Below, one piece after another: positions 22,617-32,772 of a stretch of DNA of 41,959 bases. A program made the translations under genes and the position numbers. This DNA is from a virus: positions 1 through 41,959 of the IMG/VR virus record IMGVR_UViG_3300010885_018299. One strand, given 5' to 3'. The notes beneath the pieces were generated by a model. That model ran no database searches. It was given only the letters and a program-made list of their open reading frames with translations, and was not told the origin of the DNA. The number at the start of each line of letters is the position of its first letter. The stretch's first letter is position 1.

Positions 22617-23294
22617 GTGGGTATCAGAGTAGAAGATCCGTTTGTAGTCAATGCAGACCTTAAGCAGGTAGGAGCGGCATTTTCTGCCACTCGCCATCAC
22701 GTAAAGGTGGCTGTCTTTGAATGCAAATGTGGCAAGCGATTTGTCACAATGTTGCGACTTGTAAAAACTGGAGTCACAAAGACCTGCAGAAACTGCAATC
22801 CAAAGAAACACGCTGATGATACGGCTAATAAAAAGCGAAGCCGTGCGTATATCGCGTGGATGAACATGCGACAAAGGTGCTTGAATCCTAAAAACAGGGA
22901 CTATGCAAATTACGGTGGTCGTGGAATCACAGTCTGTATCGAGTGGGGCTCATTCAAGCAATTTGAGTTCGATATGGGTCAGCCATCGCGCGGGCTATCA
23001 TTAGACCGAATCAACAACGATCGCGGATACTCAAAGGAAAACTGCCGCTGGGCGACTGGCCACCAACAAAACCAAAACAAGCGAATCCGTAAAATACAGC
23101 AAGTTGATTCTCGGAAGGTCCGCCGCAAAGCACAAGTGCGGCCGATGATAACGCTCACGCATGAAGGAAAGACGCTGACGATTTCAGAATGGTCCAAAGC
23201 GACGGGGGTTTACGACAGGACCATTTACTATCGATTCAAAAAGGGATGGCCCGCAGACCGCTGTTTGGCAGCAAAGGACTACCGATTGAGTTAG
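22617..23294 (+). CDS. HNH homing endonuclease with C-terminal DNA-binding repeat
   Basis: A 225-residue free-standing homing endonuclease. Residues 30-60 carry a zinc-ribbon-like set (FECKCGK and CRNCNP). The HNH core spans about 78-160: AYIAWMNMRQRCLNP, NYGGRGITVC, SLDRINNDRGYSKENCRWAT. The C-terminal 45 residues are an HTH-type unit (TLTISEWSKATGVYDRTIYYRFKKGW) that also occurs twice in the regulator at 29244. The start is GTG at 22617, with AGGAG eight bases upstream. It has its own promoter and terminator, as expected of a mobile gene. Confidence 0.86.
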   Translation: MGIRVEDPFVVNADLKQVGAAFSATRHHVKVAVFECKCGKRFVTMLRLVKTGVTKTCRNCNPKKHADDTANKKRSRAYIAWMNMRQRCLNPKNRDYANYGGRGITVCIEWGSFKQFEFDMGQPSRGLSLDRINNDRGYSKENCRWATGHQQNQNKRIRKIQQVDSRKVRRKAQVRPMITLTHEGKTLTISEWSKATGVYDRTIYYRFKKGWPADRCLAAKDYRLS

Positions 23295-23302
23295 TTGCAC
23301 CA

Positions 23303-23351
23303 ACGAAGCCTGGGAAGGGCCAGTCTCGATCGGGACTGGCTCGCTTCGTTT
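23303..23351 (+). terminator. Terminator of the HNH gene
   Basis: ACGAAGC pairs with GCTTCGT and, nested inside, GCCAGTC pairs with GACTGGC across TCGATCGG. The T-run afterwards is only three long, so termination may be partial. Confidence 0.65.
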
Positions 23352-23383
23352 AACCAGCCGCCAAACAATTTCCGCGAAGTGCT

Positions 23384-23410
23384 TTGAGCTATTGCAATCT
23401 CCGGTATGAT
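23384..23410 (+). promoter_or_regulatory. Possible promoter P1 of an intergenic RNA
   Basis: TTGAGC, 15 bases (16 if the -35 is taken one base earlier) and TATGAT. A transcript from here would include both arms of the 12-bp inverted repeat that follows and end at the terminator at 23527, about 140 bases in all. Confidence 0.45.
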
Positions 23411-23464
23411 GCGGACGCTGTTCGGCGTGGAAACCGACTGGCGACTACCAATTGGAATGAATCA

Positions 23465-23493
23465 TTGAATCTGGGCCGCCTGTCCCGTATACT
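23465..23493 (+). promoter_or_regulatory. Strong sigma70-type promoter P2 of the intergenic RNA
   Basis: TTGAAT, a 17-base spacer and TATACT. It lies within the loop of the 12-bp inverted repeat and would start a transcript of only about 60 bases before the terminator. Confidence 0.68.
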
Positions 23494-23526
23494 CAGGCAC
23501 CGCGATTGGTAGTCGCACAATCCACG

Positions 23527-23559
23527 AAAACAGCTCAGGCTTCGGTCTGGGCTGTTTTT
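23527..23559 (+). terminator. Intrinsic terminator of the intergenic RNA
   Basis: AACAGCTCAG pairs with CTGGGCTGTT (one G-U pair) across GCTTCGGT and is followed by a T5 run. A good intrinsic terminator with no preceding ORF. Confidence 0.85.
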
Positions 23560-23838
23560 GTTTGGCGAGTGCGTAAAAGGTTGTCGTCTTGGTGGTAACT
23601 GGACACAGAAATACCGCCGCTGTGAAATTCGTCGCAAACTGCGTGAGGCGTTTAATTCTGGGCAACGTCCAAACTGACGACCCAGACAGATCCAGAGCCC
23701 TCGGTCACTGTTGCACGAAACACCAAGACAGGCTGAATCCGAAGAGATCCAATACAGGATCTGGATAAAGTGGCGGTATGCGCAAAGAGATATCTCAGTA
23801 AAACACGGGCAAAACAAAATCCTTTTGCATTTTTACAA
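23560..23838 (+). other. Gene-poor intergenic stretch
   Basis: I find no supported gene in these 279 bases. AGATCC pairs with GGATCT (near 23745), and a weak AT-rich terminator-like hairpin (GCAAAA, TTTTGC, T5) lies at about 23809-23833. A frame from TTG 23558 to 23677 could encode 39 residues with three cysteines (CVKGC and RRC) and a basic helix. It lacks a ribosome-binding site and begins inside the terminator, so I regard it as a remnant at best. Confidence 0.4.
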
Positions 23839-23840
23839 AA

Positions 23841-23883
23841 TGATATCACCACGCATTGACGCCCCTGCCGATAGTGATATCAT
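23841..23883 (+). promoter_or_regulatory. Promoter with paired TGATATCA operators
   Basis: TTGACG (23856-23861), a 16-base spacer and TATCAT (23878-23883). The 8-bp palindrome TGATATCA occurs at 23841-23848 and again at 23875-23882; the flanks make the pair a 10-bp inverted repeat (ATGATATCAC and GTGATATCAT). The second copy covers the -10 box and the first sits upstream of the -35. This geometry suits repression by a dimer, with looping or cooperative contact over 34 bases. Confidence 0.68.
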
Positions 23884-23890
23884 ACCCGCA

Positions 23891-23948
23891 CCGAGACGCA
23901 GTGTGTGACTCGGAGGCAAACCAAAGTGAGGCCGCAAGCCTCGGGGAG
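23891..23948 (+). promoter_or_regulatory. Structured 5' leader with two hairpins ahead of the gene at 23956
   Basis: CCGAG pairs with CTCGG (23891-23913), and GAGGC pairs with GCCTC around CGCAA (23928-23942). The second stem ends one base before the GGGGAG ribosome-binding site. The leader may stabilise the mRNA or modulate translation. Confidence 0.5.
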
Positions 23949-23955
23949 AATTGAG

Positions 23956-24324
23956 ATGGCTTTTGTATCACAAGACGATAAAGCAAAGTTGGCTCCAGCG
24001 ATCAAAGCAGTTTTGAAAAAGCATGGAGTTAAGGGTTCGATCGGCGTTCGTCATCATTCAACGCTAGTTGTCACCCTTCAGTCAGGTTCAATCGATTTTG
24101 GAAGTGATTACATTCAGGTCAATCACTACCACATTGAGACAAGCGAACGCTACAGTTCAGAAGCGAAAGCATTCTTGACGGAACTTGTGGCAGCGATGTA
24201 CAGCGAAGACTGGTTTGACCGCAGTGATTCGCAAACCGATTACTTTCACTGCTCATATTATTTGTCTGTCAAAGTTGGCAAATGGAATAAGCCTTACATC
24301 TGCACTGCTCCAGTAGCGTGCTGA
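23956..24324 (+). CDS. Conserved phage protein of unknown function
   Basis: A 122-residue protein beginning MAFVSQDDKAKLAPAIKAVL. Later stretches are VKGSIGVRHHSTLVVTLQSG, IQVNHYHIE and CSYYLSVKVGKWNKPY. I recall the same arrangement in hypothetical proteins of many enteric and other phages (resembling the LPD29-type domain of large polyvalent proteins), with no assigned role. The ATG at 23956 is set by GGGGAG eight bases upstream. It has a private regulated promoter, a structured leader and a private terminator, so it is probably expressed apart from the late genes. Confidence 0.75.
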   Translation: MAFVSQDDKAKLAPAIKAVLKKHGVKGSIGVRHHSTLVVTLQSGSIDFGSDYIQVNHYHIETSERYSSEAKAFLTELVAAMYSEDWFDRSDSQTDYFHCSYYLSVKVGKWNKPYICTAPVAC

Positions 24325-24329
24325 TTCCC

Positions 24330-24400
24330 TCGCCAGTCCGGTGCAGCCATAAGCAAGCTGCACCGGCTTTGGCTGGTTCAATCCGGACTGGCGACTTTTT
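24330..24400 (+). terminator. Nested double-stem terminator
   Basis: TCGCCAGTCCGG (24330-24341) is the exact complement of CCGGACTGGCGA (24383-24394), followed by C and T5. Inside, CCGGTGCAGC (24338-24347) is the exact complement of GCTGCACCGG (24357-24366). The CCGG at 24338-24341 belongs to both stems, so the full stems are mutually exclusive at four base pairs. This could be a simple terminator or a small switch. Confidence 0.8.
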
Positions 24401-25865: not shown

Positions 25866-25887
25866 ACATTTTCAAAGGAGTGGAACA

Positions 25888-26079
25888 GTGCTTGTATTGA
25901 GTCGGCTCAAGAATGAAGAAATCATCATCGGCGACAACATCAGAGTGATGGTGATTGATGTACGCGGCGACAAGGTTCGCCTTGGAATCACAGCTCCGAG
26001 AGAAATCTCAGTGCATCGCAAAGAGATTTACGAAGCGATCAAAGCCGCCGAAACCACAACCGATTCAGACTGCGATTAA
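25888..26079 (+). CDS. csrA: CsrA/RsmA family post-transcriptional regulator
   Basis: A 63-residue protein with the canonical CsrA start LVLSRLKNEEIIIGDNI, then VRGDKVRLGITAP and VHRKEIYEAI. The key RNA-binding residues are kept (Arg near position 6 and Arg 43 in the VHRKE stretch). CsrA dimers bind GGA motifs in mRNA leaders and alter translation. The start is GTG at 25888; its ribosome-binding site AAAGGAGTGGA itself holds two GGA motifs, so autoregulation is plausible. A phage copy could reprogram host translation or time phage genes. Confidence 0.93.
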   Translation: MLVLSRLKNEEIIIGDNIRVMVIDVRGDKVRLGITAPREISVHRKEIYEAIKAAETTTDSDCD

Positions 26080-32716: not shown

Positions 32717-32772
32717 CGTCGTCCGCTGACAAATCGCTGACAAATCGCTGACCGAGTAGGCAGCGGACGACG
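32717..32772 (+). repeat. Inverted repeat enclosing iteron-like direct repeats: possible origin
   Basis: CGTCGTCCGCTG (32717-32728) is the exact reverse complement of CAGCGGACGACG (32761-32772). Between them GCTGACAAATC is repeated in tandem (32725-32735, 32736-32746) with a partial third GCTGAC (32747-32752). No T-run follows, so it is not an intrinsic terminator. It lies directly after the replication genes, as phage origins often do. Confidence 0.55.

Follow-up and report, generated by a model that had tools for sequence, protein, structure and literature searches.

The locus considered here raises two questions: whether a perfect inverted repeat, lying between promoter-like and terminator-like elements, belongs to a structured RNA of a phage, and what such an RNA might do. 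It is found in a 41,959-base IMG/VR phage contig, analysed over its whole length and referred to here as the window, in which nearly all long frames are on the plus strand. Upstream the locus is flanked by an HNH endonuclease gene that ends at 23294 and has a terminator-like hairpin at 23317-23342, and downstream by an early gene (23956-24324, PHROG 10415). The initial annotation had proposed a small RNA without an ORF, transcribed from two promoters (P1 and P2) and closed by a terminator, with the long and short products folding differently as a possible switch.

The inverted repeat

The 12-bp inverted repeat is perfect, as had been described, with its arms at 23441-23452 and 23505-23516 and 52 nt between them. 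Four perfect inverted repeats whose arms measure 12 bp or more and lie no more than 100 nt apart occur in the window, against 0.3 expected in simulated sequence, and the repeat at 23441 is therefore unlikely to have arisen by chance. The predicted fold of the RNA region was better than that of every one of 200 shuffled sequences (z -4.1). Two of the further repeats lie near 32740 and 37165. Another, TCGCCAGTCCGG / CCGGACTGGCGA at 24329-24400, is located between two early genes, encloses an inner pair (GGTGCAGC / GCTGCACC) and is followed by TTTTT; it has ACTGGCGAC in common with the conserved RNA described below, and is possibly a further structured RNA or a terminator.

A family of structured RNAs in phages

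Homologues and covariation define a conserved structured RNA, RNA-A, at 23417-23572 on the plus strand; it is 156 nt long and made up of three hairpins that abut. The initial annotation had made its proposal depend on conservation in relatives, and RNA-A is kept in about 20 IMG/VR phage contigs representing 12 distinct sequences, that of the window included, although some of these contigs are near-identical and the independent lineages are thus fewer than the contigs. One true copy was found in each searched record. In a related phage (G015) identity of about 88% sets in at 23417, before which there is no similarity; the arms GCGACTACCAAT / ATTGGTAGTCGC of the window are represented there by GCGACGATCAAAT / ATTTGATCGTCGC, and the apical helix GCCTG / CAGGC by GCATC / GATGC.

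Because the stem covaries, the window's exact stem or 3' arm gave no matches when used as a query. A spaced pattern built on the conserved ends identified 14 true contigs and one chance match, a core pattern gave four further contigs, and a pattern for the 3' half gave a divergent type in four contigs. Seven pattern matches in genome_contigs were discarded as chance, their surroundings having nothing else in common with the family, as were L082, L102 and L104. Weak minus-strand model matches (12-29 bits) overlap the genuine copies, whose hairpins they represent as mirror folds. Searches of named phages and plasmids with blastn gave nothing convincing; RNA-A together with the sequence that follows it in L080 had only a 32-base partial match (E 0.03) among named phages and none among plasmids. 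No Rfam 15 covariance model reached its gathering threshold over the whole window, and none was found at E up to 5 over 23300-23960 or at E up to 2 over the loci of L076, L080, L083, L095 and L098, including the second RNA domain within them. RNA-A appears to constitute an unlisted family of phage structured RNA.

Compensatory changes, which the initial annotation had suggested looking for, are present in all stems of RNA-A. In an alignment of 11 sequences with 40 pairs, pseudoknot pairs included, 96.6% of cells are paired, and both partners have changed in 12 pairs. When the divergent twelfth sequence is added, 94.7% of cells pair over 32 nested pairs, and changes to both partners are seen in 11 pairs and 34 cells. 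The covariation score was reached by none of 500 shuffles, and sliding the partners by 1-3 columns in the 11-sequence alignment left 1-3 pairs changed on both sides; as the structure was derived from these very sequences, this control is biased in its favour, the real evidence being the compensatory changes themselves. A minus-strand frame of 142 aa and a TTG-started frame of 42 aa overlap RNA-A, yet the statement that there is no ORF holds in substance, as the differences among homologues are indels of one base and paired changes, a pattern that is RNA-like and not protein-like.

RNAalifold and single-sequence folds agree on the three hairpins (alignment columns 1-26, 27-101 and 102-161) in most members, those of L095 and L098 differing from the consensus when folded singly. 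Hairpin 1 (23417-23442, plus strand), which has the loop CGUGGAAA, is supported by covariation, UCGG/CCGA being replaced by UCAC/GUGA in other lineages. Hairpin 2 (23443-23514, plus strand) forms the core of the 12-bp inverted repeat and has a hypervariable stem with compensatory changes. The apical element (23473-23498, plus strand) contains the helix GCCUG:CAGGC (23478-23482 / 23494-23498), in which three of the five pairs change on both sides. An H-type pseudoknot GGG:CCC (23473-23475 / 23484-23486) is possible, with one compensatory change to CGG:CCG in L083, and is not clear in L101; a GUGGA:UCCAC contact, invariant across members, is only a suggestion. Hairpin 3 (23515-23572, plus strand) consists of a GCAC:GUGC base and an ACAGC:GCUGU stem closed by a UUCG or GNRA tetraloop.

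The start of the RNA

Promoter P1 (TTGAGC-15-TATGAT, 23384-23410, plus strand) has a -10 element that ends 6 nt before RNA-A. When the 60 bases upstream of RNA-A were scanned in the 12 types, the -10 of the best sigma-70-like match ended exactly 6 nt before the RNA in every one. The upstream sequences themselves form at least six unrelated groups, most of which are 22-66% identical to one another (L074 and L098 are 80% alike), and the constant distance of the -10 in spite of this places the 5' end of the RNA at about 23417. The structure, conservation, promoter position and context observed here make it almost certain that RNA-A exists as a conserved, structured RNA and that P1 drives its synthesis; its transcription, termination and effect are what we infer from them.

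The terminator and a second RNA domain

In the contexts examined, RNA-A and the domain that follows it separate the late genes from the early ones and have the orientation of the genes downstream. The T-run hairpin that had been recorded after the inverted repeat is present, with a UUCG cap, at 23524-23563, and such a terminator occurs only in the window, the L073 type and L083 (3/12 types). In the other nine, hairpin 3 is GNRA-capped and without a T-run, and a scan from P1 as far as the first frame with an SD that could be placed gave no intrinsic terminator, this frame being absent or doubtful in L079 and L075. Hairpin 3 may act as an attenuator in some lineages.

RNA-B, a second conserved structured RNA (23573-23783, plus strand), adjoins RNA-A in most relatives. 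Compensatory change was found in 14 of its 35 predicted pairs among nine sequences, and a protein remnant at 23560-23680 could be ruled out, this stretch being RNA-B with covariation. Matches to a separate RNA-B pattern adjoin RNA-A in all complete cases, that is, wherever the contig is long enough to show it. L078, L085 and L098 have RNA-A but other sequence in place of RNA-B; in L078 and L098 a conserved non-coding stretch of about 230 nt (starting GAGTCGCGGGGCTGTCCGATGCAGGCAGAGTGGGGCGACTT) lies directly 3' of RNA-A where RNA-B would be. In the window, L073 and L083, RNA-B is kept past the terminator, so some transcripts must read through it if RNA-B lacks a promoter of its own.

The way in which the early genes are reached differs between members. 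In L076 RNA-A and RNA-B lead directly to an SD and ATG, and in L076, L078 and L098 no further promoter was seen between RNA-A and the first early frame. A promoter-like site for the early genes is located downstream of the RNA in the window, L074, L080 and L095. That of the window (TTGACG-16-TATCAT, with inverted operator-like sites, 23841-23883, plus strand) is found with and without the RNA cassette, and the sites around it, TGATATCAC / GTGATATCA at 23841-23882, are conserved in relatives and are likely to be a repressor operator.

An accessory cassette with mosaic variation

Six phage contigs in which the protein of the next gene is 94-98% identical were taken as close relatives of the window. 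Comparison with them delimits an accessory cassette at 23353-23798, which is missing from L003-L007; L002 has a different insert at this site. All six are 89-93% identical to the window from about 23800 onward and have the HNH-side terminator region in common with it (in L006 judged by eye only). The RNA is absent from L002-L007 and the early promoter and operator-like sites are kept, so that in these phages the early genes can do without it.

Members that do have the RNA are in part mosaics of one another. Between L075 and L079 the 1,000 bases upstream and hairpin 3 do not differ (100%) and RNA-B is 96% identical, whereas hairpin 2 is only 71% identical. The window and L075 are 97.5% identical over the 200 nt after RNA-A and 73% in hairpin 2. 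Hairpins 1 and 2 of L095 and L098 are exactly alike within unrelated flanks. The identities between L075 and L079, and between L095 and L098, suggest that the promoter, the hairpins and RNA-B recombine or diverge separately.

Comparison with known RNAs

The put RNA of phage HK022 binds the zinc-binding domain of the RNA polymerase beta' subunit and suppresses termination. Like the put RNAs (putL and putR), RNA-A stands directly after an early phage promoter and ahead of early genes, is made up of abutting stem-loops and has no obvious protein partner. The putL RNA begins just downstream of the early promoter, has two stem-loops and needs no dedicated protein factor (PMC9378689); RNA-A likewise starts 6 nt after the -10 in 12/12 types, by the early region. 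Put differs in having two stem-loops and about 70 nt, where RNA-A has three hairpins and 156 nt and is followed by a second RNA domain, and the likeness is one of description. HK022 put RNA is, by analogy, the closest functional counterpart, and RNA-A may work alike but cannot be filed there.

ROOL and GOLLD are elaborate structured RNAs of phages and prophages whose function is not known (PMC12286853). RNA-A is also an elaborate phage structured RNA, but it is smaller, ROOL and GOLLD being much larger and often near tRNA islands; no tRNA is present in the 41,959-nt window, and the Rfam models of ROOL and GOLLD did not match the window or the homologous loci searched. With phage small RNAs that have their own promoter RNA-A shares an intergenic position, a promoter (P1) and, in some lineages, a terminator. 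It differs from them in its extensive conserved fold and in being part of a two-domain region, and also in that the promoter is always present whereas most members are without the T-run terminator. RNA anti-CRISPRs (Racr) are mimics of the CRISPR repeat (PMC10651486).

The early region after the RNA locus contains a csrA-like gene (25885-26079), and csrA genes are present in 18 of 29 related records. A CsrA-titrating RNA (sponge) was rejected as an explanation of RNA-A, as several GGA loops are needed and only one (GUGGA) is conserved, and as csrA is not tied to the RNA, the gene occurring also in the RNA-less relatives G001-G003. There was no support for an attC-like DNA site or a 6S-like promoter mimic.

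Possible function

Our preferred reading, to which we give a probability of roughly 0.4, is that RNA-A acts in cis as the 5' leader of transcripts of the early region, and as such it probably controls the transcription that enters the early genes. RNA-A would fold on leaving the RNA polymerase, at or near +1, and once folded would decide whether the polymerase goes on into RNA-B and the early genes, the route being either a polymerase modified as by HK022 put RNA or ordinary attenuation via hairpin 3. In the lineage of the window hairpin 3 would serve as an intrinsic terminator and a discrete RNA of about 147 nt would be the default, with read-through when conditions or RNA-A allow. A leader is favoured by the location of the RNA where early-region transcription starts, the absence of a terminator from most types, the presence of RNA-B past the terminator and the lead-in to the SD in L076. 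It is opposed by the dispensability of the RNA in L002-L007 and by the early promoter-like site that the window, L074, L080 and L095 have of their own. That hairpin 2 diverges while its surroundings do not is also more like an element that is recognised in trans or contested.

It is a serious possibility that RNA-A is instead a trans-acting phage small RNA (an accessory 'moron' RNA), released as a free molecule of about 147 nt from P1 to the terminator and binding a protein or RNA of host or phage, for instance to neutralise a defence or commandeer a regulator. Such an RNA would fit a discrete cassette that is present or absent between close relatives, a separate early promoter in several members, a promoter belonging to the RNA itself and, in the window, a strong terminator of its own; a hypervariable hairpin 2 in identical flanks, as between L075 and L079, would fit an arms race. 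It fits less well with the nine of 12 types that have no terminator after RNA-A, and with RNA-B coming next in most types. When the two are weighed, the cis-acting leader is slightly ahead.

We consider it rather improbable that RNA-A and RNA-B are a single bipartite RNA of about 370 nt, such as a larger ribozyme, scaffold or riboswitch. RNA-B, located by its own pattern, is beside RNA-A in every complete case and covaries too, but RNA-A does without it in L078, L085 and L098, and a terminator separates the two domains in three lineages.

The initial annotation fared unevenly with respect to transcription: covariation and the promoter position in relatives bear out a structured RNA starting at P1, while the second promoter did not stand. 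P2 (TTGAAT-17-TATACT, 23465-23493, plus strand) does sit between the arms of the inverted repeat and scores 9/12, but promoter-like sites in a 2-kb scan around the locus are barely above chance (4 against 1.9 expected), so that P2 by itself means little. Its parts coincide with two segments conserved in RNA-A, the stretch AUUGA and the loop UCCnnUAnACU at the apex. The spacing from TTGA to TAnACT is 17-18 in the homologues read, a point in favour of P2, but among them TATACT is the -10 of the window and the L076/L086 type alone, most having TACACT. Judged from these sequences P2 is probably not a promoter but a pair of conserved RNA segments, and a switch between a long P1 RNA and a short P2 RNA of different fold is very unlikely. 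A switch may still exist on other grounds, namely an attenuator-like 3' hairpin that serves as a terminator in only some lineages and possible competing partners within RNA-A (5' GCUGU for ACAGC and loop GUGGA for UCCAC).

Least credible of all is a palindrome acting as DNA, such as a recombination site or mobile-element end, for although variable genes adjoin and a 10-bp inverted repeat flanks the locus in the window, this flanking repeat was not seen in the G015 homologue, and the constant promoter position, the GNRA and UUCG tetraloops and the G-U pairs of RNA-A on the plus strand all argue against it.

Implications

A bolder proposal, which we think somewhat unlikely, is that the locus represents a phage RNA regulator of a new class, a modular molecule of about 370 nt whose two domains stand where the early region starts. 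Its middle hairpin would be swapped or diversified among phages that are otherwise identical, and the RNA would have the host transcription machinery, or a defence, as its direct target. What the analysis has brought to light appears to be an unlisted phage RNA family with strong covariation, a constant promoter and a hypervariable hairpin, carried by phages distant from the named ones, and the alignments and covariance model of RNA-A permit direct follow-up. If RNA-A acts on RNA polymerase, it would join the small number of protein-free antiterminators known so far; if its action is in trans, the variable hairpin would point to a co-evolving host or phage counterpart.
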